This document shows positions 8,886 through 35,982 of a stretch of 37,655 nt of DNA, in pieces. How positions within the stretch are numbered: position 1 is the stretch's first letter; each line of letters starts with the position of its first letter. Made by a program: the position numbers and the translations under genes. Under the pieces are notes generated by a model. The model was not told the origin of the DNA and did not search any database. It saw only the letters and a program-made list of their open reading frames with translations. Origin of the DNA: an uncultured Alphaproteobacteria bacterium (GTDB lineage: Bacteria > Pseudomonadota > Alphaproteobacteria > Bin95); assembly GCA_937891825.1 (NCBI GenBank), contig CALAHN010000157.1, positions 1 to 37,655 on the forward strand, given 5' to 3'.

Positions 8886-8943
8886 TCGTCCACGATTTGG
8901 CCTTGCCCGCGCTCCTTTGCGTCATTCCTTGGAACCATCATCT

Positions 8944-10170: not shown

Positions 10171-10174
10171 CGCG

Positions 10175-11365: not shown

Positions 11366-12492
11366 CCGGGCCGCTCGCGGGGATGAAGATCGTCGAGATC
11401 GGCGAGGGTCCCGCCATCGCCTATGCCGGCCGGAATTTCGCCGATCTGGGCGCCGACGTCGTGAAGATCGAACCGCCGGAAGGCGACGCCATGCGCCGCT
11501 GGCCGGGGCCGGTCATCCTGGACGCGCCCGCCGCCTTTCATGCCCTGCATCGGGGCAAGGCCTCGATCGCGCTGGACCTGGCGCTGCCCGCCGATCGGGC
11601 GACCTTGCGCGCCTTGCTGCTGGCGGCCGATGGCGCGATCGACGGCACGCCGGAAGGGATCGTGCGCCAGCTTGCGCCGGCGGCCGAGGCGACAGCTCTC
11701 GTCGTCGGGCGGTTGACGCCCTACGGCGACGGCGTCGATCCGGACGTGCCTGCCCATGACGCCACGATCCAGGCGGAATCCGGCTGGCTCTCAATCAACG
11801 GGCGGCCGGATTTCGATGCGGTCCGTTCCGGCCTGCCGATGCCCTCGGTCGCGGCCGGCGCGAGCGTCGTTCAGGGGATGCTCGCCAGCTTGATCGCCCG
11901 CTGCGACGACGGCGAGGGCGAGGATGTCGATGTGGCGCTTTATGACCAGTCGGTCGTGATTTCATATCATTATGCCATGCAGTTCCTGGTCAACGGCGAG
12001 CGGCCGAAGCGCTGGGGCAATGGCAGTCCGGCGGCCCAGCCCCTCGGCGTATTTGAGGCGAGCGACGGCGAGTTTCAGATGACCGTCGCGGGCGACCGCG
12101 TCTGGCGCCGCTTCGCGGAAAACGTGCTGGAACGGACCGACCTGATCGACCATCCGGACTACGCCCGGAACAGCGGCCGCGTCGCCAACCTGGATGCGTT
12201 GATGGACATTATCATCCCGCTCTTCAAGACCCGGCCGCGCGCCCACTGGATTGCGAAGATGCAAGCCGGCAGCGTGCCGGGCGGCCCGATCCGCACCCTA
12301 GACGAGGCGGTCGTCGCCCCGGAATCCGTGGAGCGCGGCCTGATCGTCTCCGCCGAGGCTGGCGGCGGCGCGCCGTCGATCCGCAACCCCATGCGCTTCC
12401 GCGACACCCCGCTCGCGACGCCGCGCCCGGCCCCGCGCCTTGGCGAAGGCGGGCCAGCGCGCGCCCGGAACTGGGAGGCCAAAAGCCGATGA
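11362..12492 (+). CDS. Family III CoA-transferase-like protein lacking the catalytic aspartate, paralogue 3
   Basis: A 376-residue divergent paralogue. The fold signature is recognisable: MTGPLAGMKIVEIGEGPAIA, RNFADLGADVVKIEPPEG, LHRGKASIALDLALP, ATIQAESGW and VDVALYDQ. However, the residue aligned with the catalytic aspartate is Ser162 (PMPSVAAG, codon TCG at 11845-11847) where the neighbours have ADMFTG, TDVTTG and VDTMTG. The usual ENFRPGVM block is reduced to DGTPEGIV and the GYG-TGP turn to TPYGDGV. The frame is fully open and overlaps both neighbours by ATGA, so it is maintained and not a pseudogene. It may be a non-catalytic partner subunit, by analogy with BaiF/CaiB heteromers such as benzylsuccinate CoA-transferase (inference). 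Confidence 0.88.
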   Translation: MTGPLAGMKIVEIGEGPAIAYAGRNFADLGADVVKIEPPEGDAMRRWPGPVILDAPAAFHALHRGKASIALDLALPADRATLRALLLAADGAIDGTPEGIVRQLAPAAEATALVVGRLTPYGDGVDPDVPAHDATIQAESGWLSINGRPDFDAVRSGLPMPSVAAGASVVQGMLASLIARCDDGEGEDVDVALYDQSVVISYHYAMQFLVNGERPKRWGNGSPAAQPLGVFEASDGEFQMTVAGDRVWRRFAENVLERTDLIDHPDYARNSGRVANLDALMDIIIPLFKTRPRAHWIAKMQAGSVPGGPIRTLDEAVVAPESVERGLIVSAEAGGGAPSIRNPMRFRDTPLATPRPAPRLGEGGPARARNWEAKSR

Positions 12493-13718
12493 CCGCTCCT
12501 GAAACGACTACCGGCGCGACCTTGCCGCCGCCCCTGACCGGCATCCGGGTGCTCGATTTCTCGCGCATCATCGCCGGTCCCCTTTGCACCCAGCAGCTTG
12601 CCGATCTGGGCGCCGACGTCATCAAGGTCGAGAACCCCGATGACGGCGACGATACCCGGCGCATGACGTCGCCCAGCATCGGCGGCGAGGCGCATTTCTT
12701 CCTGGCCTTCAACCGCTCCAAGCAAAGCCTCGCCCTCGATCCGCGCACGGCGGACGGCAAGGCGATCCTCCTGGCGTTGCTCGAGGATGTCGATGTCCTG
12801 GTCGAAAACTACCGGCCCGGCGTCATGAAGCGCTTCGGCCTCGACTATGCCAGCTTGAAGGACCGGTTCCCGAAGCTGATCTATCTCTCGGTCTCCGCCT
12901 ATGGGCAGACCGGTCCGATGTGGGACCGGCCGGGCTTCGATCCCGTCCTGCAGGCGGAAAGCGGCATGATGTCCCTGACCGGCGCGGCGGACGGGCCGCC
13001 GATGCGCCATGCGCTCAGCCTGGTCGACACCATGACCGGCCTGCAGTCGGTCGCGGCCGTCTGCGCGGCGCTCCTGGCGCGCGGGCAATCGGGGCAGGGC
13101 CAGCATATCGATCTCGCGCTGATGGACATGGCGGTCGCGTCGCTCGGCAATGCCGGGCTGTTCTATCTCTGCTCCGGCGATCAGCCGAAGCGCGCCGGCA
13201 ATTCGCACATGACCTCGACGCCGACCAATTTGTTCGACACCGCCGACGGGCCGATCTACATGGCGCTCGGCACGAACCGGCTTTACGGCCAACTCTGCCG
13301 GGATGTGCTGGACCGGCCGGACCTTGTCGACGATCCCCGCTTCAAGGAGCCGGCGGACCGGCTGGCCAATCGGCCGGCGCTGTTCGAGATCCTGGAAGAA
13401 ATCTTTGCCGCCAAGCCGCGCGACGCCTGGCTGAAGCGGATGCGCCATCTGCCGGCGGGGCCGGTGCGCATGGTCGGCGAGGCGCTCGAATCAGAGGAGG
13501 TCGCCGCCCGCGGCATGGTCGCGACGGTGGAGCATCCGGTCGCCGGTCCGGTCCGGGTGATCGGCTCGCCCTTGAATTTCTCCGCCTCGAAGCTCCGTCC
13601 CTACGCGCCGCCGCCGACGCTCGGCCAGCACACGTCCGCAATCCTGAAGGAGCGGTTGGGCTATGACGACGCCAGGATCGCCGCGCTCAAGGCCAGCGGC
13701 GCGATCGGCGGCGAATAG
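12489..13718 (+). CDS. Family III CoA-transferase (CaiB/BaiF), paralogue 4
   Basis: A 409-residue CoA-transferase with all family blocks: VLDFSRIIAGPLCT, KVENPDDGDDTRRM, VLVENYRPGVMKRFG, SAYGQTGP, FDPVLQAESGMM, the catalytic Asp180 in LVDTMTG and GQHIDLALMD. An N-terminal extension of about 14 residues precedes the fold. The ATG at 12489 overlaps the stop of paralogue 3 (ATGA). With paralogue 3 directly upstream it could form a catalytic/non-catalytic pair. It is followed after 4 bases by the aspartate dehydrogenase-like gene, which continues the operon. Substrate unknown. Confidence 0.93.
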   Translation: MTAPETTTGATLPPPLTGIRVLDFSRIIAGPLCTQQLADLGADVIKVENPDDGDDTRRMTSPSIGGEAHFFLAFNRSKQSLALDPRTADGKAILLALLEDVDVLVENYRPGVMKRFGLDYASLKDRFPKLIYLSVSAYGQTGPMWDRPGFDPVLQAESGMMSLTGAADGPPMRHALSLVDTMTGLQSVAAVCAALLARGQSGQGQHIDLALMDMAVASLGNAGLFYLCSGDQPKRAGNSHMTSTPTNLFDTADGPIYMALGTNRLYGQLCRDVLDRPDLVDDPRFKEPADRLANRPALFEILEEIFAAKPRDAWLKRMRHLPAGPVRMVGEALESEEVAARGMVATVEHPVAGPVRVIGSPLNFSASKLRPYAPPPTLGQHTSAILKERLGYDDARIAALKASGAIGGE

Positions 13719-13722
13719 GCGG

Positions 13723-14526
13723 ATGGGCCAGGTTCTGAAGGTCGGCCTCATCGGCCTTGGCGCTGTCGCGGCGCCGCTCGTGCGGCAATATCTGGCGGGC
13801 GGGTTTCCCCGGAATGTCGTCTTCGTCGGCGCGCTTGTCCGCACGCCGCGACCGGACGCCGGCCTGCCGACGGTGACGACGGCGGCGGCGCTGCTGGCGC
13901 TCGAGCCGGACTATATCGTCGAGGGCGCGGGTCATGGGGCCGTGCAGACCCATGTGGAGCCGCTGCTGCGCGCGGGCAAGGAAGTCGCCGTCACCTCCAT
14001 CGGCGCATTGATCGACGACGGCCTGCGCGCGCGCCTTCTGGATGCGGCGACGGCGGGCGGCGGCAAGCTGATCCTGCCCTCGGCCGGCATCGGCGGGCTC
14101 GACATGCTTGCGGCGATGGCGGAAGGCGGCGTCGATAGCGCGGTCGTCACGGTCAGGAAGCCGCCGGCGGCCTGGCTCGGCACGCCGGGGGAAAAGCTGG
14201 TCGATCTGATGGCGCTTCGGGCGCCGGCAGTGCTGTTCGACGGCACGGTGCGCGAAGGCGCGCCGCATTATCCGGGCAATGTGAACATCTCGGCCGCGGC
14301 GGCGTTCGCCGGGGCCGGCCTCGACAAGACCCGTCTGGTCATCATCGCCGACCCGACGATCGTCAATCACGTGATCGATCTGGAAGCGACCGGCGCCGCC
14401 GGCCGCCTGGCGTTCCACGAAGATATGATCCCAAGCCCGGCCAACCCGAAAACCGGCGTCATCGTCGCCATGGCGCTCGCGAAGACGATTCGCCAGCGGG
14501 CCGGCAGCTTCGTCGTCGGCGCCTGA
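13723..14526 (+). CDS. L-aspartate dehydrogenase-like protein (NadX family)
   Basis: A 267-residue NAD(P)-dependent dehydrogenase resembling L-aspartate dehydrogenase, which converts aspartate to iminoaspartate/oxaloacetate plus ammonia. The Rossmann glycine motif GLIGLGAVA is at residues 8-16. DYIVEGAGHGAVQTHVEPLL, SIGALIDDGL, LILPSAGIGGLD, KPPAAWLGTP, NVNISAAAAFAG and PNPKTGVIVAMAL match the family. ATG 13723 lies 4 bases after the stop of the last CoA-transferase; an upstream in-frame ATG at 13663 would be inside that gene. No nadA or nadC is nearby, so a role in NAD synthesis is not supported by context; it may process an amino-acid intermediate of the CoA-transferase pathway (inference). 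Confidence 0.85.
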   Translation: MGQVLKVGLIGLGAVAAPLVRQYLAGGFPRNVVFVGALVRTPRPDAGLPTVTTAAALLALEPDYIVEGAGHGAVQTHVEPLLRAGKEVAVTSIGALIDDGLRARLLDAATAGGGKLILPSAGIGGLDMLAAMAEGGVDSAVVTVRKPPAAWLGTPGEKLVDLMALRAPAVLFDGTVREGAPHYPGNVNISAAAAFAGAGLDKTRLVIIADPTIVNHVIDLEATGAAGRLAFHEDMIPSPANPKTGVIVAMALAKTIRQRAGSFVVGA

Positions 14527-15559: not shown

Positions 15560-16711
15560 TTGGGGTCGAACGCGACGGATGAAGCGCATTCCGGCCCTTT
15601 GCAGCTTCAGTTCGACCGCTCCGTGAAGCTTTCATTCCAGGGGTCTTCGATCAGTTCGGATGGCGGCTTGCTGCTGCGCCGTGAACTCGACGACGCGCTT
15701 GGCCTCATTGATGTGGCCACGAACCACATCGCCGATCCCCGCACCGGGAAGAACGGCCGCCATCACCTCGCCGGCCTGCTGCGCCAGATGATCTTCTCGC
15801 GCCTGGCCGGCTATGAGGATGTCAACGACGCCGACCGGCTCAGCTGCGACCCGGTCATGCGCCAACTGATCGGTGGACGGGCGTTGAAGCATGGCGCATT
15901 CTCACCTTGTTTGTCGCCGTGCAATCTGGAGCGATGCGCGCTCCGGCCCGGCAACGTCCAAAGCGCCGACGGCTGGGAAGATGTTCTGAAGCCGGTGCTG
16001 GCGCGTTATTCCGCCGACGCGCGGCCTTCGATCACGCGCCGGCGGTTCCGGGCCGATGCGGCGTTCGCCATCCCGGCGCTGTTCGACCTCCTGGAGACCG
16101 AGGGCTGGGATTATGCGATCCGCATCAACGGCAATCCCAAGCTCCACGAACAGGTTGCGTTCCTGACCCGGCGACCGCCAGGCCGCCCGCCGAACCATGT
16201 CGTGCGCCGCAGTACGAGCTTCCACTACCGTGCCAGGAGCTGATCGACGCCCAGGCGGATCGTGGCGAAGGTCGAGTTCCATCCGGGCCAGTTGTTCCCG
16301 ACCATCGGGTTCATCGTGACCAACCGCAGCCTGCCGAATGAGCGGGTGCCGGTTTTCTACAATGACCGGGGCACGGCAGAGCAGCACATCAGGGAAGGCA
16401 AGTACGCTGTGAAGTGGTTGCGCCTTTCATGCATCCGCTTCGCCGCCAATGCCGTGCGCCTCCAGCTGCATGCGCTTGCCTACAATCTGGCGACCTTCCT
16501 GCGCACGTCAGCCACGCTAAAGGCTATCGAGAGCTGGTCGCTGGCCTCGCTTAGGGAGCGGCCGATCAAGACGGGCGCGCGAATGGTGCGCCATGCGCGC
16601 TATGCCGTCTTCTAGACGGCCGAAACCGCCCTGCCGCGCGCGGTGTTCGCCGGCGTCCTCGACCTGATCAACGGCCTGCGCGGGCCGCCAGTTGAGGCGG
16701 CGTCTTCATGA
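15560..16711 (+). pseudogene. IS1380-family transposase, inactivated
   Basis: The translation from TTG 15560 matches IS1380 transposases: LSFQGSSISSDGGLLLRREL, HHLAGLLRQMIFSRLAGYED, VNDADRLSCDPVMRQLIGGRA, then LERCALRPGNVQSADGWEDVL, FRADAAFAIPALFDLLE and VAKVEFHPGQLFPTIGFIVT. Three lesions are visible. First, near 15890-15920 about 85-90 residues between GGRA and NLERCALR are missing, including the first catalytic aspartate of the DDE site. Second, TGA at 16241-16243 replaces an expected tryptophan codon in the same frame. Third, TAG at 16613-16615 interrupts the C-terminus, after which TAETALPRAVFAGVLDLING still matches until TGA 16709-16711. It cannot encode a working transposase. Confidence 0.9.
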
Positions 16712-21254: not shown

Positions 21255-22319
21255 TCAGGCGACGGCGACCCGCGGCTGGCGCGCCGGCTTGTAGTCCAGC
21301 GGCAGCACGCCGGCGCGTTCGATGAACTGGCGGATGCTGTCCTGGGCGAGCGCGGGCTCAGTCGAGGAAATATAAACCCGGTCGGCTCTGGTCGGCTTCG
21401 CGGCGGGATATGTGCGGTCGCCTTTCGCGCCGAGCGGATCTACGACGAAATACCGGCCGCAATCCCACATCCGCGCGACTTCCTCGGCGGTGGAGAGTTC
21501 CTCATAGAGCTTTTCGCCAGGGCGCATGCCGACAATCCTGATCTCGATATCTTTCGGATCGCGGCCGTAATAGGGCGCCATCATTTCGACCAGCACCTCG
21601 GCCACATCGATGATGCGCATGACCGGCATCTTGGTGATGAAGATTTCGCCGCCCGTGGCATAGCGGATGGAATCGATCACCATCTCAGCCGCTTCATCCA
21701 GGGTCATCATGAAGCGCGTCATGTCCTGGTGGGTCAGGGTGACCGGGCCGCCCTTGGCGATCTGCTGAATGAACAGCGGAAACACGGAGCCGCGCGAGCC
21801 GACGACATTGCCGAAGCGGGTCGAGGCAAACTGGGTCGGGCGGCGCGCGCTGACCGACATCTGCGCCGCCGTGATCAACCGCTCGCCCATCAATTTCGTC
21901 GTGCCCATGACGCTGGTCGGATTGACCGCCTTGTCCGAGCTCGTGAACAGCACCTTCTTGACGCCCCCCGCCTGGGAGGCCCGCACGACATTTTCCATGC
22001 CATGCACGTTGACCTTGACCGCCTCGAACGGGCTCGATTCACAAAGCGGCACATGCTTCAGGGCGGCGGCATGGAAAACGTAATCGACGCCGTCGAGCAA
22101 GCGCATCAGGCCTTCCTGCTTGCTGATGTCGCACAAATAGGCAGCCAGCTGGCCAGGCTTGTTCATTTCGTGCTCAAGCTCGAACAGGCCGGTTTCGTTG
22201 TTGTCGAGCGCGCGCACCTGCGCCGTCGGCTCCAGCATCAACTGACGCACGAGTTCCTTGCCGACAGTTCCGGCGGCGCCGGTGACTGCGACGCAAGCGC
22301 CTTCGAAGGACTTAAACAT
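21255..22319 (-). CDS. Nucleotide-sugar 4,6-dehydratase-like protein (WbpM/PglF/CapD type, soluble)
   Basis: A 354-residue extended SDR of the polysaccharide_synt_2 family, whose members make UDP-4-keto-6-deoxy-hexosamines for surface glycans. The NAD motif TGAAGTVG is at 13-20. HAAALKHVPLCE, the SSDKAVNPTSVMGTTK block and FASTRFGNVVGSRGSV are family signatures, as is GMRPGEKLYEEL near residue 260. The usual YxxxK catalytic tyrosine is Met138 (MGTTK, Lys142), the SMK arrangement known from WbpM-type enzymes. It lacks the four-helix membrane domain of full WbpM/PglF and so is a short cytoplasmic form. GGGGAAG precedes the ATG. The capsule export genes upstream point to a role in that polysaccharide. 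Confidence 0.9.
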   Translation of the reverse strand: MFKSFEGACVAVTGAAGTVGKELVRQLMLEPTAQVRALDNNETGLFELEHEMNKPGQLAAYLCDISKQEGLMRLLDGVDYVFHAAALKHVPLCESSPFEAVKVNVHGMENVVRASQAGGVKKVLFTSSDKAVNPTSVMGTTKLMGERLITAAQMSVSARRPTQFASTRFGNVVGSRGSVFPLFIQQIAKGGPVTLTHQDMTRFMMTLDEAAEMVIDSIRYATGGEIFITKMPVMRIIDVAEVLVEMMAPYYGRDPKDIEIRIVGMRPGEKLYEELSTAEEVARMWDCGRYFVVDPLGAKGDRTYPAAKPTRADRVYISSTEPALAQDSIRQFIERAGVLPLDYKPARQPRVAVA

Positions 22320-22442: not shown

Positions 22443-23759
22443 CTAATGGCAAAGCGGATTAATAATGTGACGGCTGTCACGCGACGCCGATCTAGCCAGC
22501 CTGCCATAGAGACAGCCCCAGGCCCCTATCGAGGTCGCGTCGCCATAGCGCGCGAGGAATGCTGCGCGCGCCGCCCGATACCTGGGCTGGCCGTGGCGCG
22601 CCGCCTGTCGGCGGATGGCGGCGGCCAATGCGGCGGGATCGCGTTCGTCGACGGCTTCGCCGATGCCGGTCGCGGCCGAGATGCGGCGAAGCGCCCGGGT
22701 GCGGCCGACGATGACGGGAAGGCCCGCCGTAACCGACTGGAACAACTTGTTCGGCAGGGCGAAGATATAGCTGGCGCAGGTCGGCTCGCCGAGGGCGAGG
22801 GCCACGTCGGCATCCGCGACGAACCGCGCCGCCGCGCCCGGCGCGCGCGCCGCCGCCGCATGAACGCGGCCGACGGCTCCGGCCGCTTCGACGATGGCGC
22901 CATAGCGCTCCTGGAAAACCTCGGTCAGCGGCCCGATCACCGCCAGGTGCAAGCTTGGGTCCAAGCCGGTCGCCCGGATGGCGGCTTCCAGGCCGCGGTT
23001 CTTGGCGGCGGCCCCGATATAGACCGCGAGCGTCGCTTCCGCGTCGAGCCCGATCGCCTTCCGCAATCCCGGCTCAACCGGATCGGCCGGGCCGGTGTTG
23101 TAGATCGTGTCCGGCAGCCGGACGGCGTAGTCGCGCGCCGCCTGCAGGGATATCTCCTCGGATACGGCGGCGCAGGCGTCGGCCTGACGGATCCAGTAGC
23201 GCTCCAGGCGGAGGCGCATCCAATGAAACGCGGGATTATACCGGGCATTGCGGTCGCGCTCGAGCTCGATGATGTCGTAGACGAGGCGCGCGCCATAAAG
23301 GCGGGCGAGCCGCCCGGCGCCCGGCAGCGCCGGCAGGCCGGTCGCATGGACGATATCGACCCGGCCCTGCCACTCGCTTTCGACGAACGCTTCGCCATGG
23401 CTCGCGATCGCCCAGAATTCCTGCGACAGGGTGCAAGCGCGCATCAGCGCCGCAGCGCCCAATGCGCCTGCGATGCTGCGCCAGAAGCCAAGCAAGCGGA
23501 TCCAGCCGCGGGCCGCGGGGCCGAGCGAGCGCGATCGCCGCAGGTTCGGGACTTCGTTGAAGATGCGGCGGACGAGGCGGGCCTTGCCGAGGGCCTCTTC
23601 GGCCGGGGCGTCGGCATGCTCCCGGCAGATCAGAACGACCTCATGGCCGAGCGCCGCGAGCTGCTGGGCGGTGAAACGCGGCCGCGCATCATGCAGGCAC
23701 GGGGAAGCTGAAACTGCAAGAACGCGCACCGGACCTGGCTTCCCTGGATCAGCCCGCAT
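22443..23759 (-). CDS. Glycosyltransferase, GT-B fold (family 4-like)
   Basis: A 438-residue putative glycosyltransferase. The N-terminal half starts VRVLAVSASPCLHDARPRF and contains VDIVHATGLPALPGAGRLA (the typical D(I/V)(I/V)H motif), VYDIIELE and ADACAAVSEEIS. The C-terminal half has LAVYIGAAAKNRGLEAAIRA, ADADVALALGE, ALPNKLFQSVTAGLPVIVGR (the nucleotide-sugar contact region) and the usual closing helices. It acts on the cytoplasmic side in sugar transfer. The start is uncertain: ATG 23759, TTG 23798 and GTG 23729 are all in frame and none has a strong ribosome-binding site. It follows the KpsD homologue by about 110 bases containing REP-like copy C. Donor and acceptor unknown. Confidence 0.85.
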   Translation of the reverse strand: MRADPGKPGPVRVLAVSASPCLHDARPRFTAQQLAALGHEVVLICREHADAPAEEALGKARLVRRIFNEVPNLRRSRSLGPAARGWIRLLGFWRSIAGALGAAALMRACTLSQEFWAIASHGEAFVESEWQGRVDIVHATGLPALPGAGRLARLYGARLVYDIIELERDRNARYNPAFHWMRLRLERYWIRQADACAAVSEEISLQAARDYAVRLPDTIYNTGPADPVEPGLRKAIGLDAEATLAVYIGAAAKNRGLEAAIRATGLDPSLHLAVIGPLTEVFQERYGAIVEAAGAVGRVHAAAARAPGAAARFVADADVALALGEPTCASYIFALPNKLFQSVTAGLPVIVGRTRALRRISAATGIGEAVDERDPAALAAAIRRQAARHGQPRYRAARAAFLARYGDATSIGAWGCLYGRLARSASRDSRHIINPLCH

Positions 23760-23807
23760 CGCGGCGGCAGCGCCGGAATGGGGGTCGATCGCTTTCAATC
23801 AATGAAT

Positions 23808-23873: not shown

Positions 23874-25646
23874 TCAGAGCGCGACGACGGCGGCGGCGAT
23901 GATCGCCACCCTGAACAGGATCTCGATGATGTCGGCCCCGATCTGGAAGAACTTCGGATCGACGCCCGGCAGCACCAGAATCTGATCGCCCCGGCGCACC
24001 TCGACGTCGGCGCCGACCAAGGCTGCGCCGCTGGCGCGAATGACGACGATCTTGTCGGGGTCGGCGCGCTCGGCATAGCCGCCCGCCTGCCGGACATAGT
24101 CGGCGACGCTGGCCCCTGGCGTGAACGCGACCGAAGCTGGCAGCACCACCTCGCCTGAAACCAGCACCAGATCGGTCTGCTGCGGGATGACGATCTGATC
24201 GCCGGCTTCCATGCGGATATCCGCGCGCCCGGCGTCGGTCGAGACGACGACGCGGCCATCGGGCTGCACGGAGCGGGCGCGCTTGATGAACTCCAGGACC
24301 AGCCTGGCTTCCTGCTCGCGGATCGCCGCCTGGCTGGGCGTTTGAGAAAGCGCCGAAAGCGCCGTGCGCTCAAGCTCGTCCAGGGTGCGGTCGAGCGCGC
24401 GCTTCTGGTCGCGGGCGACGCTCTCGCGCCGGATGAAGATGCTGTCGGTCGCGGCGACCCTGGGATCGACCGGAATGAGGTCCAGCACGCTGTCCAGGGT
24501 CACGCCGCGCCCGATGGCGATCAGGCCGGCGCCCTGATGGGCCCCCTCGACCTCGACGAAGACTTCCTCCGCCTTCAGGTCCGCCTGGAAGATCACGAGG
24601 TCGCCGTCCTGCAGCGATGCGCCCAGGAATTCCTGGTACGGCACATAGCTGTTGAACGGCTGGCCATTGCGGAAGCCGCTGAACGCCACATGGGTCACGT
24701 CCGCCTTCGGGCGCGCATAGGACGCCAGTTCGCGTCCCAGCACGGGAAAGCGCGGAAACTCGAAAGCCGCGGTCGCGCGGGCGTCGCCATTGACCGTGAT
24801 CGCGCCGCCAATGGGGCCGATCAGGATGACGTCGCCGTCCTTGAACTGCGGCGTCGGCAGGGCGCCGCGCAGCAGGAAGTCATAGAGATCGGCTTTGGCG
24901 ATCGGCTGGCCGCCGCGCAGGATGGAGACGTTCCGGAACGAGCCGCTCTGCAGCGCGATGCCGCCCGCCTTGTCGATGAAGGAGAGCAGGGAATCGCTGG
25001 GCAGCCCTGCATACCGACCGGGATTCCGGACGGCGCCGGTCACGAAGACCCCAAGCGTCTGGGCGCCCATCAGGTTCACATAGACCTGCACATTGTCGGT
25101 GAAGATCCGGTTCACCCGACTTTCGACGGTCTTCTGCAACTGGCTATTGGAAATGCCGGCGACCGGGATCGGGCCGACCTCGGGCACGAACAGATTGCCC
25201 TGGGCGTCGACGGGCACGACTTCGCTGAATTGCTGGGCGCCGTAGAGATTGACCGCGATCTGATCGCCGGGCGCGATCTTGTATTGCGGATTGACGCCGC
25301 TTGGCCGCTCGCGCGCGAACTGGCCGCCGAAGAGGCTGGCGCCGAATGGCTGGGTGCCAAGCTCGATCCGGTCGAGGGACTGCTCGCTCGCAGCCTCGCC
25401 GCTGACGCCGGCGGCTTCCTGCCCGACTTCGGTCGCGCCGTTCCCGGCGCTTGGCAGGGGCGTCTGCGCGCGCGATGCTCCGAAGGCGGACGCGGCGGCG
25501 CTGCCGATCGCATATTTCCGAATTCGGTCCAACTGGGCGTTGTCGGCGGCGAGCGCGCTTGTGGATGCCATGAGCAGCGCCAGCACGGCGGCTGCGACGG
25601 ATGAGGTGACGCGCGAGGCGATGGGTCGAATTTCAAGCGCGGGCAT
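23874..25646 (-). CDS. KpsD-like polysaccharide export protein (periplasm/outer membrane)
   Basis: A 590-residue protein with a signal peptide (about 1-33, ending SALAADN). The poly_export domain begins YKIAPGDQIAVNLYGAQQFS with VPVDAQGNLFVPEVGPIPVAG. SLBB-type beta-grasp domains follow (LGVFVTGAVRNPGRYAGLP and later LVLVSGEVVLPASVAFTPG), and the C-terminus is hydrophobic (IIEILFRVAIIAAAVVAL). The length and absence of a lipobox cysteine resemble KpsD (about 558 residues, ABC-dependent group 2 capsules) more than lipoprotein Wza. It would form the outer part of the envelope conduit. The start at 25646 overlaps the KpsE homologue by 14 bases, indicating a joint operon. Confidence 0.9.
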   Translation of the reverse strand: MPALEIRPIASRVTSSVAAAVLALLMASTSALAADNAQLDRIRKYAIGSAAASAFGASRAQTPLPSAGNGATEVGQEAAGVSGEAASEQSLDRIELGTQPFGASLFGGQFARERPSGVNPQYKIAPGDQIAVNLYGAQQFSEVVPVDAQGNLFVPEVGPIPVAGISNSQLQKTVESRVNRIFTDNVQVYVNLMGAQTLGVFVTGAVRNPGRYAGLPSDSLLSFIDKAGGIALQSGSFRNVSILRGGQPIAKADLYDFLLRGALPTPQFKDGDVILIGPIGGAITVNGDARATAAFEFPRFPVLGRELASYARPKADVTHVAFSGFRNGQPFNSYVPYQEFLGASLQDGDLVIFQADLKAEEVFVEVEGAHQGAGLIAIGRGVTLDSVLDLIPVDPRVAATDSIFIRRESVARDQKRALDRTLDELERTALSALSQTPSQAAIREQEARLVLEFIKRARSVQPDGRVVVSTDAGRADIRMEAGDQIVIPQQTDLVLVSGEVVLPASVAFTPGASVADYVRQAGGYAERADPDKIVVIRASGAALVGADVEVRRGDQILVLPGVDPKFFQIGADIIEILFRVAIIAAAVVAL

Positions 25647-26850
25647 GTTCGCGGACCGCTCCTACAATCAGGCTGCCGACGCCGAACGCCAGCAGGCTTA
25701 CGACGAAAGCTGTCGCGATCTTGTACATGCGCTTTGGCTCGACCGCTACATCTGGAAGCGAAGGCGGGGCATAAGCGACGAGATAACTGCGGTCGTTCTG
25801 GGCGCTGGCGCGAGCGGCCTCCAGGGACGCCAGGGCGGATTTGTAGCCGGCCTCGGCCAGTTCCAACTGCAGGCGCGCTGCATTGAAGCCGCGCAAATCC
25901 TCGGTCAGGGTTTCGGAATTACTGTCGGCTAACCGCCGCCTTTCGACTGCGATCTGCCGCTCCAGCGCCGCGATCTTGCTGTTCAGGGAATTCACCTGGG
26001 GCGTATCGGCCCGGAAATTGCTCCTGAGAGAGGCCATGGCCACGCGGGATGTCGCCAGCTCCGCTTCCAGGCCGGCGATGACGCCAAGCACCGCGTCCGC
26101 CGATCGTCTGGGATCGATGTCGCCGCTGGCCTTCTGGTAGGCCGTGACTTCATTCGCGGCGCGGATCATCCGTTCTTCGCCGCGCTCGACCTCCGCCAAT
26201 GCGGCCCGGAGCGCGTCTTCCTGGGCGACTTCCGACAGGCGGTTGACCATTTGCTCGGCGGCGCCGATGGCCGATGACGCGACGGCCACAGCATCGTCGG
26301 GCGTGAAGGCGCGGACGGTCAGCGTCAACAGGCCCGCCCCGTCGTCGGTCACGCGAAGCGTGTCCTTGAAGAAGCTGTGCATCTGCTCCTTGCTGGCGCC
26401 AGGCTCGAGCCGGGAAAAGAAATCGGCCTTGTAGCTGGTGAAGCGTTCGCGGAAATTGATCTCCCGGTCCACCCGCTCCATCAGGTCGCGGCTCCTGAGA
26501 TAGTCCGCGACGAGTTGCGTTTCGGTATTCCCGACAGTCACGTCGTTCGGATTGATCAGCCCCTCGAACAGGGACACGCCCTGCGCCTTCGACGATCGGA
26601 TGGTGACGCTGGCCTCGGAAATATAGAGCGGCGAGGCGATCAGGCCGAAATACAGCGCGGCCAGAAGCGTCGGCGCGCCGACGACGGCGGCGAGCAGGAT
26701 GCCCCACTGGGACTTCGGCCGGCGGCGGCGGCCAGGGGCGCTTGGCCGGATCGGCGGCGCGACCTTGGACGGTCCCCGTTCGGCCGGCGGCGCGCCGGGC
26801 TTGGCGGCGGCGGGCGGCGTTCCGCGCCGGGCTACAGCGGTCGCGTTCAA
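25633..26850 (-). CDS. KpsE/CtrB/BexC-like capsule export inner-membrane protein
   Basis: A 405-residue polysaccharide co-polymerase-type protein that links the ABC transporter with the outer-membrane component. There is a Pro/Ala-rich cytoplasmic N-terminus (1-48), a transmembrane segment at about 49-72, a long periplasmic region with predicted coiled coil (about 210-350, heptad-rich AALAEVERGEERMIRAANEV and similar) and a second transmembrane segment at about 376-398. The N-terminal periplasmic block YISEASVTIRSSKAQGVSLF is typical of the CtrB family. The start is a TTG at 26850 with GGGAG upstream; no in-frame ATG occurs before residue 150. It lies 60 bases after the KpsT homologue and overlaps the KpsD homologue. 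Confidence 0.92.
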   Translation of the reverse strand: MNATAVARRGTPPAAAKPGAPPAERGPSKVAPPIRPSAPGRRRRPKSQWGILLAAVVGAPTLLAALYFGLIASPLYISEASVTIRSSKAQGVSLFEGLINPNDVTVGNTETQLVADYLRSRDLMERVDREINFRERFTSYKADFFSRLEPGASKEQMHSFFKDTLRVTDDGAGLLTLTVRAFTPDDAVAVASSAIGAAEQMVNRLSEVAQEDALRAALAEVERGEERMIRAANEVTAYQKASGDIDPRRSADAVLGVIAGLEAELATSRVAMASLRSNFRADTPQVNSLNSKIAALERQIAVERRRLADSNSETLTEDLRGFNAARLQLELAEAGYKSALASLEAARASAQNDRSYLVAYAPPSLPDVAVEPKRMYKIATAFVVSLLAFGVGSLIVGAVREHARA

Positions 26851-26910
26851 AACAGGCGTACTCCCAAGCTGAAACGGGAACGGCGTCGAGCCGGGATATT
26901 CGGCAACGGT

Positions 26911-27561
26911 CTACTCTTCATCGAGATAATAGTCGATTGCATCCTCGATCGCCTCGAACAGCGTCAATTGTCCGTCCCGCAGCACAAGGCCCGTGTCGCA
27001 GAACTTCCGGATCGTCGTCGGACTGTGGGACACGATCAGCAGGCCGGCTTCGTCGCGGATGCGGTCGAATTCCTGAGCGGCCTTGGCGCGAAACCAGTAG
27101 TCGCCGACCGACACCAGTTCGTCGATCAGGTAAAACTCGAACCGCATCGCGAGGCTGAGGCCGAACGCCAGCCGGCCGCGCATGCCTGACGAGAAGGTGT
27201 TGATCGGCATGTCGAAATATTCGCCGAGCTCCGCGAAGTCATTCACGAACGCCGTCACTTCATCAATGTCGGCGTCATAAACCCGGGAGATGAACCGCAA
27301 ATTCTCCCGCGCCGTCAGGGCGGGGTGAAAGCCGCCGGTGAAGCCAAGCGGCCAGGAAACCTTGGCGTCGCGCTCGATCCAGCCGGAATCCGGCTGCTCT
27401 TCGCCGGAGATCATGCGCAGCAGCGTCGACTTGCCGGCGCCGTTGCGCCCAAGCACGCCGATATGCCGGTCCGTCGGCAGGACCAGCGAAACATTGTCCA
27501 GGATCACCCGGTAGCCGTTATCGGTCCGGTAGGACTTGGAGACGTCATGCAGGACGATCAT
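26911..27561 (-). CDS. kpsT: KpsT-like capsular polysaccharide ABC transporter ATP-binding protein
   Basis: A 216-residue ATPase of the KpsT/CtrD family that powers export of lipid-anchored polysaccharide across the inner membrane. Walker A GRNGAGKST (38-46), a signature-like SSGMRGRLAFGLS (from 124), Walker B FYLIDE (143-148) and the switch His179 in VSHS are all present. The length is typical (about 219). It starts at ATG 27561 overlapping the KpsM stop (ATGA). A longer in-frame extension upstream lies inside kpsM in the wrong frame for family sequence and was rejected. Confidence 0.95.
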   Translation of the reverse strand: MIVLHDVSKSYRTDNGYRVILDNVSLVLPTDRHIGVLGRNGAGKSTLLRMISGEEQPDSGWIERDAKVSWPLGFTGGFHPALTARENLRFISRVYDADIDEVTAFVNDFAELGEYFDMPINTFSSGMRGRLAFGLSLAMRFEFYLIDELVSVGDYWFRAKAAQEFDRIRDEAGLLIVSHSPTTIRKFCDTGLVLRDGQLTLFEAIEDAIDYYLDEE

Positions 27562-28349
27562 CGCATGGCCCCGCCGCGGCGCCGGCGGACGGCCAGCTCC
27601 ATGATCGCCGCCGTGGCGCCCATGCCGATCGCCCAGGAAATCACATAGTCGATGTCGGCATAGGGCGCGGAATAGCCCGTGATCCAACCGCCGCGCGCCA
27701 GATCGATCAGGTGGGCGAGCGGGTTCAGCAACAGGTAATGGCGCCATTGCTCCGGCACATGCACCAGGGCGAAGAGCACGCCGCTGGTGAAGAACAGCAG
27801 GCGACGAACCGCGTTGACGCCAAAGCCGATCGAGGGCGCGACCACGAGCGCGCATCCGACGATATGCCCGAACGTGGCCCCGAAATAGACCATCGCGCCC
27901 ATGGACACGGCCACCGCCAGGGGGTCGTCCAGCGTCATGGCGATGCCGGCGGCGTAGAAGATGATGGCGAGGATCGCTGTCGCCGCAAGCTTGGTGCCGA
28001 ACTCCAGGGCAGAGCGCGCGATGACGATGTCCACCACGGTCACCATTGGATAGACCAGCAATTGCCGGTTCGTCTGAAATGCCCGCGAGACATGCCCCTG
28101 GGTGTCGATGAAGCAGAGCCAGGCCATCATGCCGGAAAACAGCAGCAACTCGATCGGCGCGCCATAGGCCGAGCGTTTGCCGAGAAAGGCGAAGAAGACT
28201 GTCAGGGAGATCACGAACATCAGCGGGACCAGCACGGCCCACAGATAGCCCAGGTGGTACATGCCGAAACGGGTGCGGATCTCGCGCAGGATAACGGCAG
28301 AGATGACCCGGCCCTGAACGCTGAGCCCTTTCACCGCCAGATCAAGCAT
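27558..28349 (-). CDS. kpsM: KpsM-like capsular polysaccharide ABC transporter permease
   Basis: A 263-residue ABC-2 type permease, six transmembrane segments, that forms the channel with KpsT. The family motif LREIRTRFGMYHLGYLWAVL is near the N-terminus, and the C-terminal part has LLLNPLAHLIDLARGGWI, typical of KpsM/CtrC. ATG 28349 is preferred because GGAG sits 9 bases upstream; ATG 28367 (MVERRD) would add 6 residues and lacks a good site. The ATGA overlap with kpsT shows coupling. It is the first gene of the export operon; the lipoprotein gene upstream on the same strand is separated by about 80 bases. Confidence 0.94.
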   Translation of the reverse strand: MLDLAVKGLSVQGRVISAVILREIRTRFGMYHLGYLWAVLVPLMFVISLTVFFAFLGKRSAYGAPIELLLFSGMMAWLCFIDTQGHVSRAFQTNRQLLVYPMVTVVDIVIARSALEFGTKLAATAILAIIFYAAGIAMTLDDPLAVAVSMGAMVYFGATFGHIVGCALVVAPSIGFGVNAVRRLLFFTSGVLFALVHVPEQWRHYLLLNPLAHLIDLARGGWITGYSAPYADIDYVISWAIGMGATAAIMELAVRRRRGGAMR

Positions 28350-28430
28350 GTCTCGACGCTCCACCATCGATCTTGCCGGCGTCGGAATGCCGTGTCCCGC
28401 CGCTCCGGCCGTTCTTCGCCTGAACGCTAG

Positions 28431-28787
28431 TCATGAGGTAATTGACGCGCGGCTCCAATACCAGCCGGTCTGGCCCCAGCAAGCGACCCGGGTGCTTGAG
28501 CCGGCCGCAGCTTGAATGGCGACGCGCTTGCAGCGCCGCCCGCTCGCTGCCGTATAGTCCGAGACGACCGTGATCGTGACGTCGCCGCCCAGGTCCGGGT
28601 CGACGACGCGGGCGCGGGCGCCGGGCGCCGCGTTCATCGTGGCGGCGAGGGCTGGCGCGACGGGCGCGGCAGGCTGCGCCGCCGCTGCCTGAGCCTGGCT
28701 TGCGGCCTGCGGGCTGGGCTTCTGCAGCGTCACGCAGCCGGAGACCAGGGCCGCCGCGAGCAGAACGAAATGGAAGTTCTTATGCAT
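28431..28787 (-). CDS. Small lipoprotein, unknown function
   Basis: A 118-residue predicted lipoprotein: the signal sequence MHKNFHFVLLAAALVSGC ends in the lipobox LVSGC, with Cys18 as the lipidated residue and Val at +2. An Ala/Pro/Gln-rich linker follows (about 25-60), then a compact domain with VTITVVSDYTAASGRRCKRV and STRVACWGQTGWYWSRA, two cysteines that may pair. This end resembles the C-terminal part of small surface-antigen lipoproteins, but I cannot assign a family with certainty. The ATG at 28787 was chosen because the lipobox falls at the expected place; the 22 in-frame residues before it do not look like a signal. It is directly upstream of kpsM on the same strand, so a role in envelope polysaccharide is possible. 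Confidence 0.75.
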   Translation of the reverse strand: MHKNFHFVLLAAALVSGCVTLQKPSPQAASQAQAAAAQPAAPVAPALAATMNAAPGARARVVDPDLGGDVTITVVSDYTAASGRRCKRVAIQAAAGSSTRVACWGQTGWYWSRASITS

Positions 28788-28879
28788 GATCGCTTGCGGG
28801 TCGCATAGCGCCGTCGCCGCGTCAAGAGGCGACAGCGCTTCGTCTTGCGCCAAAGGGCCGAAATCCGCTAAACGCCGCC

Positions 28880-29857
28880 ATGATGCAAAATTCCCCCGAA
28901 GACCAGACTGCGGCCGCCGTCGCCATCGGACGCAGCCTCATCGCGACGGAAGTCGCTGGATTGAACGCCCTCGCGGACAGCCTCGGCGCCGCCTTCGCGC
29001 TGGCGGTCGACGCCTTGACGGCGATGCAGGGCTATTGCGTCGTCACGGGCGTCGGCAAGTCCGGGCATATCGGCACGAAGATCGCCGCGACCTTCGCCTC
29101 CACCGGCACGCCGTCGTTTTTCGTCCACCCGACCGAAGCAAGCCACGGCGATCTCGGCATGCTGGCGGGCGCGGGCGTGCTGCTCGCCATCTCCAATTCC
29201 GGCGATACCCGGGAAATGCGCGATATCCTGACCTACGCCCGGCGCCAGTCGATTCCGGTGATCGGCGTCACCAAGCGGCAGAACAGCTTGCTGGGCGGCA
29301 TGTCGAATATCCTCCTGCAATTGCCGGACGTCGAGGAAGCTTGCCCGAACGGTCTGGCGCCGACGACATCGACGACCGCGACGCTGGCGCTCGGCGATGC
29401 GCTTGCGGTCGCGGTGATGGCGAAGCGCGGCTTCGGCCGCGAGGACTTCGGCATGGTGCACCCAGGCGGCAAGCTTGGCCTGCAATTGCAGCATGTCTCG
29501 GACTGGCTGACCGATGCGCCGCCGGCGCCCAGGGTCCCGCCGGCGCTCGCGGCTGGCGATGTCGTCTCCGCGATCGCCGATGGCGGCATGGGCTGCGTCG
29601 CCGTCGTCGAGGGCGAGCGGCTGATCGGCTGCATCACCGATGGCGATTTGCGTCGGGCGTTCGCGCGGGACTTTTTCGAGAAGCAGGCGCGCGACATCAT
29701 GAGCGCCGCGCCCTCGACCGTGACGCTCGACATGCGTATGGCCGACGCCATCGGCATGATGACCGACCGCAGCATCTCCAACCTGTTCGTCGTCGAAGGC
29801 GACCGCCTGCTCGGCGTCATCCACATGAAGGACCTGCTGAAAGCCGGATATCTTTGA
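28880..29857 (+). CDS. kdsD: Arabinose-5-phosphate isomerase (KpsF/KdsD/GutQ family)
   Basis: A 325-residue sugar isomerase converting ribulose-5-phosphate to arabinose-5-phosphate, the first step of Kdo synthesis. The SIS domain (about 40-180) shows VVTGVGKSGHIGTKIAATFA, GTPSFFVHPTEASHGDLGM, LLAISNSGDTREM and APTTSTTATLALGDALAVAV. Two CBS domains follow (about 205-325), including ERLIGCITDGDLRRAF and DRLLGVIHMKDLLKAGYL. ATG 28880 or ATG 28883 can start. It is divergent from the export operon with 92 bases between. In group 2 capsule loci kpsF lies beside kpsEDM, since Kdo forms the linker of the exported glycolipid; the same context is seen here. Confidence 0.94.
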   Translation: MMQNSPEDQTAAAVAIGRSLIATEVAGLNALADSLGAAFALAVDALTAMQGYCVVTGVGKSGHIGTKIAATFASTGTPSFFVHPTEASHGDLGMLAGAGVLLAISNSGDTREMRDILTYARRQSIPVIGVTKRQNSLLGGMSNILLQLPDVEEACPNGLAPTTSTTATLALGDALAVAVMAKRGFGREDFGMVHPGGKLGLQLQHVSDWLTDAPPAPRVPPALAAGDVVSAIADGGMGCVAVVEGERLIGCITDGDLRRAFARDFFEKQARDIMSAAPSTVTLDMRMADAIGMMTDRSISNLFVVEGDRLLGVIHMKDLLKAGYL

Positions 29858-29950
29858 GACAGGCGGCCATTCGGACAGGTTCAGGGGCGGGAATCATGCC
29901 AAACTGTGACGGCGCTCGCGCTTCTGACTGTCCGTTTTCCAATCGCAGGG

Positions 29951-29979
29951 TTGCCATGGGGGCGGCCGCCAACTAGAGC
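29951..29979 (+). promoter_or_regulatory. Candidate promoter upstream of the SQD1-like gene
   Basis: TTGCCA (29951-29956, five of six matches to TTGACA), a 17-base spacer and TAGAGC (29974-29979, weak -10). It lies 41 bases before the SQD1-like start codon. Pattern match only. Confidence 0.25.
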
Positions 29980-30020
29980 TTCAGCCGTTTTATCGGGCGT
30001 TCGCCCTGGAGGAGAGACTT

Positions 30021-31172
30021 ATGCGCATCATTATTCTAGGCGGCGACGGGTATCTTGGCTGGCCGACGGCGATGCACTTCGCCGCCCGCGGCTGCGAGGT
30101 GCTGGCGGTCGACAATTACATGCGCCGCAACATCGCCCGTGAAACCAGTTCGGAAGCGCTGGTCGAAGCGCCGAATCTCGTGGATCGGGCTGAGGCCTTC
30201 GAGGAAATCACCGGCAAGAAGATCCAGGTCGAAATCGGCGACTGCTGCGATTATCGCTTTATGGAGCGCATCTTCCGCGACTTCAAGCCGACGGTCTGTA
30301 TTCACTACGCCGAGCAGCCTTCGGCGCCCTATTCGATGAAGGGCTATGAGGAAGCGCGGCGGACGCTCGACAACAATCTGGCCGTGACGTTCAACACGAT
30401 CTGGGCGGTCAAGGAGCAGGCGCCGGACTGTCATATCGTGAAGCTTGGCACCATGGGCGAATATGGCACGCCGCCGATCGACATCGAGGAAGGCTACATC
30501 GACATCAAGCACAATGGCCGGGAAGGGCGCTTCCTGTTCCCGCGTCAGGCCGGGTCGCTCTATCACACGACCAAAGTGCTCGATACGGACCTGATCTGGT
30601 TCTATGTCCGCACATATGGCCTGGAGGTGACCGATCTGATGCAGGGCCCGGTCTACGGCCTTTCGACCGATGAGGCCGATCAGGACGATCGCCTGCTGCC
30701 GAACTTCCACTATGACGACATTTTCGGCACGGTCGTGAACCGCTTCCTGGTCCAGGCTGTCGCCGGCATTCCGCTGACGGTCTACGGCAAGGGCGGCCAG
30801 GTGCGCGGCTATCTGAACCTGAAGGATACGCTGCAGTGCGTCGAGCTTGCGGCGAACAATCCGCCGGGCAAGGGCCAGCTTCGCATCTTCAACCAGTTCA
30901 CCGAGACGTTCTCGGTCAATCAGTTGGCGGAAGAGGTCAAGAAGGCGGGCGCGGTCGTCGGCCTGAAGGTCGAGGTGAAATCGATCCCGAATCCGCGCAA
31001 GGAGCTTGAGGAGCACTACTACAATCCCAAGCACTCCGGCCTGACGGAACTCGGCCTGAAGCCGCACCACATGACGACGGAAGTCCTGGTCGAGATGCTG
31101 AAGAAGATCATGACCTACAAGGATCAGATCGTGCCGGCGCGGGTGCTGCCGAGGGTTGTCTGGAACAAATAG
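30021..31172 (+). CDS. sqdB: UDP-sulfoquinovose synthase-like NAD-dependent epimerase/dehydratase (SQD1/SqdB family)
   Basis: A 383-residue extended SDR very similar in motif order to plant SQD1 and bacterial SqdB, which add sulfite to UDP-glucose to make UDP-sulfoquinovose. The NAD motif is GGDGYLGWPTA (7-17). EQPSAPYSM (98-106), VKLGTMGEYGTPPIDIEEGY (from 140; Thr144, Glu147), LYHTTK with Tyr181 and Lys185, and VYGKGGQVRGYLNLKDTLQC near residue 255 all match SQD1. The ending NPRKELEEHYYNPKHSGL is also characteristic. The ribosome-binding site GGAGGAG lies about 6 bases before ATG. No sulfolipid glycosyltransferase gene (sqdD/sqdX) is in the window; kdsD is upstream and capsule genes are nearby, so the product could serve a polysaccharide or a sulfolipid. 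Confidence 0.92.
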   Translation: MRIIILGGDGYLGWPTAMHFAARGCEVLAVDNYMRRNIARETSSEALVEAPNLVDRAEAFEEITGKKIQVEIGDCCDYRFMERIFRDFKPTVCIHYAEQPSAPYSMKGYEEARRTLDNNLAVTFNTIWAVKEQAPDCHIVKLGTMGEYGTPPIDIEEGYIDIKHNGREGRFLFPRQAGSLYHTTKVLDTDLIWFYVRTYGLEVTDLMQGPVYGLSTDEADQDDRLLPNFHYDDIFGTVVNRFLVQAVAGIPLTVYGKGGQVRGYLNLKDTLQCVELAANNPPGKGQLRIFNQFTETFSVNQLAEEVKKAGAVVGLKVEVKSIPNPRKELEEHYYNPKHSGLTELGLKPHHMTTEVLVEMLKKIMTYKDQIVPARVLPRVVWNK

Positions 31173-31198
31173 CAGCAGCCCGCCGGCCCGCCAAAAGT

Positions 31199-31226
31199 GC
31201 GGGGATGCCCCCTCGGGCGTCCCCGC
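31199..31226 (+). terminator. Hairpin terminator after the SQD1-like gene
   Basis: A 12-bp stem with one G-T pair (31199-31210 with 31215-31226) and a CCTC loop, 26 bases after the stop; no T-tract. The rest of the 293-base gap (31173-31465) shows no further gene; it must hold the promoter for the ligase operon, but I see no convincing -35/-10 pair. Confidence 0.55.
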
Positions 31227-31465
31227 TGGCTTGGGCCGGCCGCCCATCCCCATTAATTCCCCCTGTAAGATTGCGTCCCTGAGCCCCTATTGGAGCCTTG
31301 CCGCGGCGTGCGGCATACTGGGGTTCCACGGGCGTTCGCCCCTGTCGTCCGACGCTGCGCCAGAAGGCCAGCGGCGGCGCGGCGCGCCGTTTTGGAAAAG
31401 GGCCTAGGGCGCGACGGTTCACTTCCGTTACGATGCTGGCATTACCGATTGAGGAGACGGGTTCG

Positions 31466-33037: not shown

Positions 33038-33766
33038 GTGGCGGACATTTACTGGCTGGCCGCCTTCGTGGTTCTGGCGGCGGGCACGGTTCGCGGCTTT
33101 TCCGGCTTCGGCGCCGGCCTGATGATGATGGGGCCGCTCTCGCTGCTGTTCGGGCTCCCGGCGGCGGTGGTGTCGGTCGCCGTGATCGATGGCGGCGCCA
33201 CGCCGACGATGTTGCGGGGCGTCTGGCGCCTGGCGGACAAGCGCCGCGCCTTCATCGCGGCGGCGGCGGCGGCCCTGACCCTGCCAGCCGGAACCTATAT
33301 CCTGCAGACCTGCGACCCGGCCTTGCTGCGCCAGGCCGCAGGCGCGGGCGTGCTCGCCTTCGTCGTGCTGATCTCCGTCGGCCTGAAGTGGCGCGGCGGC
33401 GGCGAACCGGCGACGGCTGGCGCGGGCGCCGTCGGCGGCCTGATCGGCGGCGCGACCAGCTTGATCGGCCCGCCGGTCATTCTCTACCTGCTCGCCCGCC
33501 AGGAGCCGGCGGATAAGACCCGGGCGACGCTGGCGATCTATATTTCGGCGGTCGTCGCGACGCAGGCTGCGATCCTGGCCGTCGCGGAGGCAGGGAGCGG
33601 CGTCGCCGGCTGGGACGCCTGGCTGACGGCGGCCTGTCTGATCCCGGTCTACATGGCGGGCATCATGATCGGGCGGAAACTGTTCGGGCTGGCGCCGCCT
33701 GCGTTCTACCGTAAAGTCGCGCTGACGCTGGTGACGGCGGCGGGCCTGCTGGCGTTGTTCGGCTGA
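33038..33766 (+). CDS. TauE/SafE family membrane exporter
   Basis: A 242-residue polytopic inner-membrane protein of the TauE/SafE (DUF81) family, implicated in export of sulfite, sulfoacetate or other organosulfur anions in characterised members. The N-terminal half carries the family motif GFSGFGAGLMMMGPLSLLFG and the second half the counterpart GGLIGGATSLIGPPVILYLL. About seven or eight hydrophobic segments are visible. The start is GTG 33038; AAGGGG in the middle repeat is the likely ribosome-binding site. It is 33 bases after the acyl-CoA ligase gene and so co-transcribed with it. Substrate uncertain. Confidence 0.88.
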   Translation: MADIYWLAAFVVLAAGTVRGFSGFGAGLMMMGPLSLLFGLPAAVVSVAVIDGGATPTMLRGVWRLADKRRAFIAAAAAALTLPAGTYILQTCDPALLRQAAGAGVLAFVVLISVGLKWRGGGEPATAGAGAVGGLIGGATSLIGPPVILYLLARQEPADKTRATLAIYISAVVATQAAILAVAEAGSGVAGWDAWLTAACLIPVYMAGIMIGRKLFGLAPPAFYRKVALTLVTAAGLLALFG

Positions 33767-35079: not shown

Positions 35080-35982
35080 ATGCTGACCCTGACTCCGTTG
35101 CATCCGCTCTTCGCCGCCGAGGCGGCCGGCGTCGATCTGCGCCAGCCCGTGGCCCCGGCGGACTTCAAGGCGATTGAGGCGGCGCTCGACCGCTATGCGG
35201 TCCTGGTCTTCCGCGGTCAGGACCTGACCGACCCGCAACAGATTGCGTTCAGCAGTTTGTTCGGGCCGCTCGGCAAGACACGGCAGGCGGACCGGCCGGG
35301 GCAGAAGCTCCGGCTCCATCCCGAGCTTTCGGATATCTCGAATCTGGACGAGAGCAACCGCTTGCTCGCCGCGAACGACCATCGCCGCATGGACGGCCTC
35401 GGCAATCGGTTGTGGCACACGGACCGGTCGTTCCACCGGGTTCCGGCGAAGTATTCGCTGCTGACCGGGCATGTCGTCCCGCGGACCGGCGGCGAGACGG
35501 AGTTCGCCGATATGCGCGCTGCCTATGACGCCCTGCCCGAGGCGACGCGGCAGTCGCTTGAGGACCTGATCGCGATCCATTCGATCTTCACGTCGCGCGC
35601 CGTGATCGGCTACACCGATTTCACGCCGGAAGAACGCGCGGCCCTGCCGCCTGTGCCGCAGCGCCTCGTGCGCGTGCATCCAGGCTCGAAGCGAAAGTCG
35701 CTCTATCTCGCGTCCCATGCCAGCCATATCGAAGGCATGCCCCTGCCGGAGGGACGGCTGCTGCTGCTTGAATTGATGGAGCACGCGACCCAGCGGCCGT
35801 TCGTCTATTCCCACGCCTGGCGCCAGGGCGACCTAGTGATCTGGGACAACCGGTGCACCATGCACCGCGCCCGCCCGTTCGACCCGGCCGAACCCCGCGA
35901 CATGCGCCGCGCCACCGTCGCCGACAGCGCCTCGACGCTGGATCAGATCGACCCGCTGCAAGAGCAAGGAGCGGGCGGATAG
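35080..35982 (+). CDS. TauD/TfdA family 2-oxoglutarate/Fe(II)-dependent dioxygenase
   Basis: A 300-residue non-heme iron dioxygenase that oxidises a substrate with 2-oxoglutarate and O2, as in taurine or 2,4-D degradation. The iron facial triad is visible: His113 and Asp115 in LWHTDRSF, and the distal His262 in CTMHRARPFD. The 2-oxoglutarate-binding arginine lies in RDMRRAT (about 276-277). DRYAVLVFRGQDLTDPQQIA near the N-terminus is typical. It is closer in motif style to TfdA/2,4-D-type than to taurine enzymes, but the substrate cannot be fixed. It ends 12 bases from the convergent FecR-domain gene. Confidence 0.93.
   Translation: MLTLTPLHPLFAAEAAGVDLRQPVAPADFKAIEAALDRYAVLVFRGQDLTDPQQIAFSSLFGPLGKTRQADRPGQKLRLHPELSDISNLDESNRLLAANDHRRMDGLGNRLWHTDRSFHRVPAKYSLLTGHVVPRTGGETEFADMRAAYDALPEATRQSLEDLIAIHSIFTSRAVIGYTDFTPEERAALPPVPQRLVRVHPGSKRKSLYLASHASHIEGMPLPEGRLLLLELMEHATQRPFVYSHAWRQGDLVIWDNRCTMHRARPFDPAEPRDMRRATVADSASTLDQIDPLQEQGAGG

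Follow-up and report, generated by a model that had tools for sequence, protein, structure and literature searches.

Organization of the locus

The window analysed here is a 37,655-nucleotide stretch of DNA from an uncultured alphaproteobacterium of the Bin95 lineage (contig CALAHN010000157.1, here C157, of a 4.3 Mb genome in 163 contigs that is 99.97% complete). It carries a gene for an enzyme related to the UDP-sulfoquinovose synthase SQD1 (30021–31172, + strand, 383 amino acids) beside a Kps-type capsule export locus, and a gene for a CapD/Pen-type UDP-N-acetylhexosamine (UDP-HexNAc) dehydratase (21255–22319, − strand). The export genes lie on the − strand and encode an SLBB-type outer-membrane polysaccharide export protein (KpsD-like, 23874–25646), a KpsE/BexC/CtrB-family inner-membrane export protein (25633–26850), a KpsT-like ATP-binding cassette (ABC) ATPase (~26911–27561) and a KpsM-like ABC-2 permease (27558–28367). 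The start of kpsT was corrected to give 216 amino acids, the length found in the congener (L011); the longer open reading frame (ORF) at 26911–28242 overruns KpsM in another frame. All four are true homologues of the KpsM/T/E/D set, and none reaches an equivalog cut-off. Divergent from this block, on the + strand, a gene for a KpsF/KdsD arabinose-5-phosphate isomerase (28880–29857), which serves the 3-deoxy-D-manno-octulosonic acid (Kdo) precursor and passes the KpsF/GutQ family cut-off (268 versus 203.7 bits), ends 163 bp upstream of the SQD1-like gene. An initial annotation had placed the Kps homologues, KpsF and an SQD1-family enzyme within about 8 kb, and this arrangement holds, with the Kps block and the SQD1-like gene together spanning 23874–31172 (7.3 kb). 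A promoter and terminator scan of 28300–31450 gave nothing exceeding chance. Two adjacent KpsC/KpsS-type genes (PF05159) occur away from the window, on contig C100, and together with kpsF they make a Kdo-linked Kps capsule plausible from gene content.

The SQD1-like protein and its relatives

The SQD1-like gene is present as a single copy in the genome. Its product, assigned by homology, residues and fold, matches SQD1 (1qrr/1i24) over its full length (382 residues aligned, E 4e-127), shares 49% identity with the Arabidopsis enzyme and has a predicted fold close to 1qrr (TM 0.94). SQD1 residues H96, E99, T145, M146, E148, Y182 and K186 are all retained, as are the NAD motif, T/M/E and YxxxK residues of SQD1, SqdB and Agl3, and the active site is invariant apart from Arg101. 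The protein scores 449 bits against a cut-off of 575 for the NCBIfam model UDPsulfquin_syn. This cut-off was set aside as a membership test, being non-discriminating; it is passed in none of 385 genomes of the class, other SqdB included.

Scanning 84,980 species genomes turned up 229 relatives. The best 80 of these (64–87% identity) were analysed, with 81 loci covered by ORF clustering and 79 by tblastn. Their sources are Saprospiraceae and other Bacteroidota, Chloroflexi, many Proteobacteria, Rhodothermales, Rubrobacter, Nitrospinota and others. Together with the window protein they form one clade, distinct from the class's sulfolipid-type SqdB. Sulfolipid-type SqdB from 18 genomes of the class (327–353 bits to the NCBIfam model) served as the control, a label that reflects how far they lie from the window clade and where sqdB of Sinorhizobium meliloti sits, on pSymB adjoining its glycosyltransferase, rather than lipid data. 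A CapD/PseB-like dehydratase gene (PF02719, ~350 residues) lies within 300 bp of the SQD1-like gene at 64 of the 81 loci, on the same strand in 63 of these and with a median gap of 2 bp. By tblastn, a CapD/Pen-like gene within 400 bp was found for 66 of 79 relatives and for 0 of 18 control loci (Fisher 1e-11), and a gene for CysH, the 3′-phosphoadenosine 5′-phosphosulfate (PAPS) reductase, at 21 of 79 and 0 of 18 (p 0.01), Fisher values that are guides because the relatives are not independent. At 16 loci, in Bacteroidota, Chloroflexota and Pseudomonadota, cysH is on the same strand as the SQD1-like gene and within four genes and 3.1 kb of it, and both CysH proteins scanned pass the equivalog cut-off; at locus L054, cysH, a short-chain dehydrogenase/reductase (SDR) gene, the dehydratase and SQD1-like genes are contiguous or overlapping. 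Clusters of some relatives also hold CysD, CysN, CysC, sulfotransferases, UDP-glucose dehydrogenase, Wzx, glycosyltransferases, polyprenyl-phosphate sugar transferases, NeuB/NeuC and aminotransferases. The SQD1-like neighbourhoods of the relatives are surface-polysaccharide clusters.

Four loci (L123, L039, L045 and L071) combine SQD1-like and CapD-like genes with NeuB and, in most, a NeuC-like gene, a gene content suggesting possible sulfonated nonulosonic acids. A second SQD1-like group with proline at position 101 (L124, L126 and L128; 57–59% identity to plant SQD1) also sits in NeuB clusters, with no Pen-like gene.

Within the family, G000 and the congener G013 jointly hold the SQD1-like gene, KpsE and the dehydratase (at the strong level), and all three are absent from the other 12 of 14 genomes. 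Because several of these genomes are incomplete, the evidence is modest. The congener has a matching locus (L011) in which the SQD1-like protein is 87% identical and kpsF is likewise adjacent. The adjacency of kpsF and the SQD1-like gene, on which weight had been placed earlier, was found in the congener only, and a conserved pairing of the two was dropped for that reason. The restriction of this adjacency to the congener and the opposite strands of the SQD1-like gene and the kps block would suit a chance neighbourhood, in which the SQD1-like gene has no connection to the capsule; the shared locus in the congener, the joint presence and absence across the 14 family genomes and the polysaccharide context of other relatives make this very improbable.

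It is also rather unlikely that the enzyme serves synthesis of the membrane sulfolipid sulfoquinovosyl diacylglycerol (SQDG) by providing ordinary UDP-sulfoquinovose, with the kps genes as unrelated neighbours. Membership of the SQD1 family fits such a role, and Alphaproteobacteria include SQDG-type SqdB. SqdX is a family 4 glycosyltransferase (GT4), and a GT4-like gene lies in the window (22443–23798, − strand), which leaves the earlier statement that the window lacks a sulfolipid glycosyltransferase only partly confirmed. As to sqd genes elsewhere in the genome, a search with S. meliloti SqdD, made without a positive control, detected no homologue. The window clade stands apart from the class's sulfolipid-type SqdB, themselves lacking dehydratase or CysH neighbours, the relatives' genes sit in polysaccharide clusters, and KpsE and the SQD1-like gene are confined to the same two family genomes. 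On the strength of the dehydratase pairing, CysH, the control count of 0 of 18 and the family co-occurrence, an exported glycan with a sulfonated sugar is better supported than a sulfolipid. We consider the balance of evidence to lean slightly towards a locus that makes a sulfonated sugar and exports it in a surface glycan. The proposal of the initial annotation is partly supported; its choice of plain sulfoquinovose may be the wrong sugar.

The dehydratase partner

The dehydratase at 21255–22319 and its pairing in relatives, which the initial annotation had missed, are the most informative part of the locus. The protein, assigned by clade, profile and fold, nests within the clade of SQD1-adjacent dehydratases from relatives, and the other CapD-type protein of the genome is a true PseB. 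Pen (6bwc) is its top solved relative in both profile and fold searches (383.6 bits, compared with 306 for FnlA and 277 for PseB), and the two group in the tree with support of 0.99. Pen of Bacillus thuringiensis is a UDP-N-acetylglucosamine (UDP-GlcNAc) 5,6-dehydratase (PMC8987622), and the SQD1 and Agl3 route passes through a 5,6-ene intermediate to which sulfite is then added (PMC4388408). The sugar made here may thus derive from UDP-GlcNAc, as these resemblances suggest, rather than being plain sulfoquinovose.

A doubtful but conceivable variant is that the two enzymes do not act in series and that each contributes a sugar of its own to one exported glycan: sulfoquinovose from the SQD1-like enzyme and, from the CapD-like one, a 6-deoxy-HexNAc, for instance N-acetylquinovosamine or N-acetylfucosamine. 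CapD-like dehydratases are common producers of the 6-deoxy-HexNAc used in surface glycans (PMC8987622), many neighbourhoods include a GalE-like SDR, which might act as a 4-reductase or epimerase, and in the window the two genes of the pair are unlinked. The median gap of 2 bp and the pairing across phyla suggest instead a single pathway.

Proposed pathway and sulfite supply

A more specific form of the sulfonated-sugar reading is put forward tentatively. In this pathway, which would be widespread among bacteria, a Pen-like enzyme would convert UDP-GlcNAc to UDP-GlcNAc-5,6-ene and the SQD1-like enzyme would add sulfite, often from an operon CysH, to give UDP-N-acetyl-6-sulfoquinovosamine. This sulfonated amino sugar would go into capsules and exopolysaccharides for export, and possibly into nonulosonic acids that are sulfonated. 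We infer the reactions, the substrate and the entry of the sugar into the polymer as follows. The dehydratase would act on UDP-GlcNAc; the SQD1-like enzyme would add sulfite at C6 over the 5,6-double bond and restore the sugar; and the product would be a UDP-6-deoxy-6-sulfo-hexose, most likely N-acetylated UDP-6-sulfo-quinovosamine, or else UDP-sulfoquinovose. A glycosyltransferase would polymerise the sulfonated sugar, and KpsMTED would export the polymer. The glycan would be of the Kps type, ABC-transported and probably Kdo-linked, with KpsF supplying Kdo to a KpsC/KpsS linker. Co-localisation and co-occurrence suggest a possible link between the sulfonated sugar and the Kps polymer. The GT4-like protein of the window is a speculative candidate user of the sugar; as a dedicated, conserved partner it is a weak candidate, sharing 29% identity with the SQD1-adjacent glycosyltransferase of one relative.

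Several observations weigh against the sulfonated-sugar reading, this pathway included. The dehydratase has methionine in place of Pen's catalytic tyrosine, with SDK retained, and so departs from the [ST]DK...YxxxK pattern; its identity to Pen is only ~40%, and its gene lies 7.7 kb from the SQD1-like gene on the opposite strand. The methionine motif has been assigned in a review to PglF/WbpM 4,6-dehydratases (PMC8987622), and an enzyme with this substitution might yield a 4-keto-6-deoxy sugar instead. Just one glycosyltransferase was recognised close to the export genes. A search for CysH in the 99.97% complete genome did not find it. Proline replaces SQD1 Arg101 in all 81 members of the window clade, a residue kept in plant SQD1 and in 18 of 18 sulfolipid-type SqdB, and the R101A mutant of Agl3 is inactive; the window protein is therefore filed as a member of an SQD1-family clade and not as a proven synthase. 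Relatives L124, L126, L128 and L129, which also have P101, are without a Pen-like neighbour, and three of them are in NeuB-containing clusters. The substitution was dropped as proof of a new substrate, since two further SQD1-like groups with no Pen-like neighbour have proline as well.

Some of these points would suit a divergent SQD1 homologue that has lost sulfite addition and works after the CapD-like enzyme, perhaps as a dehydratase, reductase or epimerase of UDP-HexNAc, with no sulfonated sugar formed. The loss in all 81 proteins of an arginine essential in Agl3, a partner that is a UDP-HexNAc dehydratase and a genome without CysH would all fit. We judge it unlikely: CysH beside the pair at 16–21 loci in several phyla is hard to account for if sulfite is not used, and the SQD1 active site is otherwise invariant.

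Under the sulfonated-sugar reading, an operon CysH would supply sulfite in many relatives; here, with no CysH in the genome, sulfite must come from another source. CysD, CysNC, CysG and CysI are present, the last two named from sequence and Pfam NIR_SIR, so sulfate assimilation appears broken at the PAPS-reductase step or follows another route. The sulfur genes lie on contigs C54 (L140, ~11200–13947) and C61 (L174, 3616–7168). A TauE/TSUP permease gene (33038–33766) and a TauD-family dioxygenase gene (35080–35982) lie near the SQD1-like gene, and it is a matter of speculation that organosulfonates serve as the sulfite source through such genes.

Comparison with known systems

The window protein is like SQD1, SqdB and Agl3 in its full-length homology, fold and conserved motifs, and differs in belonging to a separate clade, marked by proline at Arg101 together with further changes invariant in the clade, and in having a dedicated dehydratase partner and a polysaccharide context. 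In the split Pen/Pal pathway of B. thuringiensis, UDP-GlcNAc is converted to the 5,6-ene and a second SDR enzyme then processes it. Two SDR enzymes in series are likewise proposed here, and the partner has Pen as its closest solved relative, but the second enzyme is SQD1-like rather than Pal, a sulfonated product would be expected and the Pen tyrosine is a methionine. ABC-dependent Kps capsules share the KpsM/T/E/D-like proteins, KpsF and, elsewhere in the genome, KpsC/KpsS; here kpsC/S are on another contig and an SQD1-like gene is added. A C-sulfonated surface sugar also occurs in the glycans of Sulfolobus (6-sulfoquinovose, made by the SQD1-family enzyme Agl3) and Thermoplasma (sulfofucose), which are archaeal N-glycans on proteins and not an exported bacterial polymer (PMC4388408, PMC12421959).

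A 2026 review names phototrophs and certain archaea as sulfoquinovose producers and heterotrophic bacteria as degraders (PMC12890257). Our literature search, in which subscription journals were mostly uncovered and a prior description is thus possible, found no bacterial capsule or exopolysaccharide with sulfoquinovose or sulfoquinovosamine from an SQD1-like enzyme. The SQD1-like/dehydratase pair suggests an overlooked way of building sulfonated sugars into surface polysaccharides. If this is correct, heterotrophic bacteria of many phyla would also produce sulfonated sugars, their surface glycans would bear a permanently charged C–S bond resistant to sulfatases, enzymes that act on sulfate esters, and there would be an organic sulfonate pool that has gone unrecognised.

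Other features of the window

Four ORFs lie in series at 8917–13718. Two of them (8917–10170 and 11362–12492) are CoA-transferase family III members by scan, and the other two resemble these neighbours by sequence. Upstream of the locus, a DDE_Tnp_1_4 transposase is split over two ORFs (15560–16615) and is probably a broken insertion sequence.

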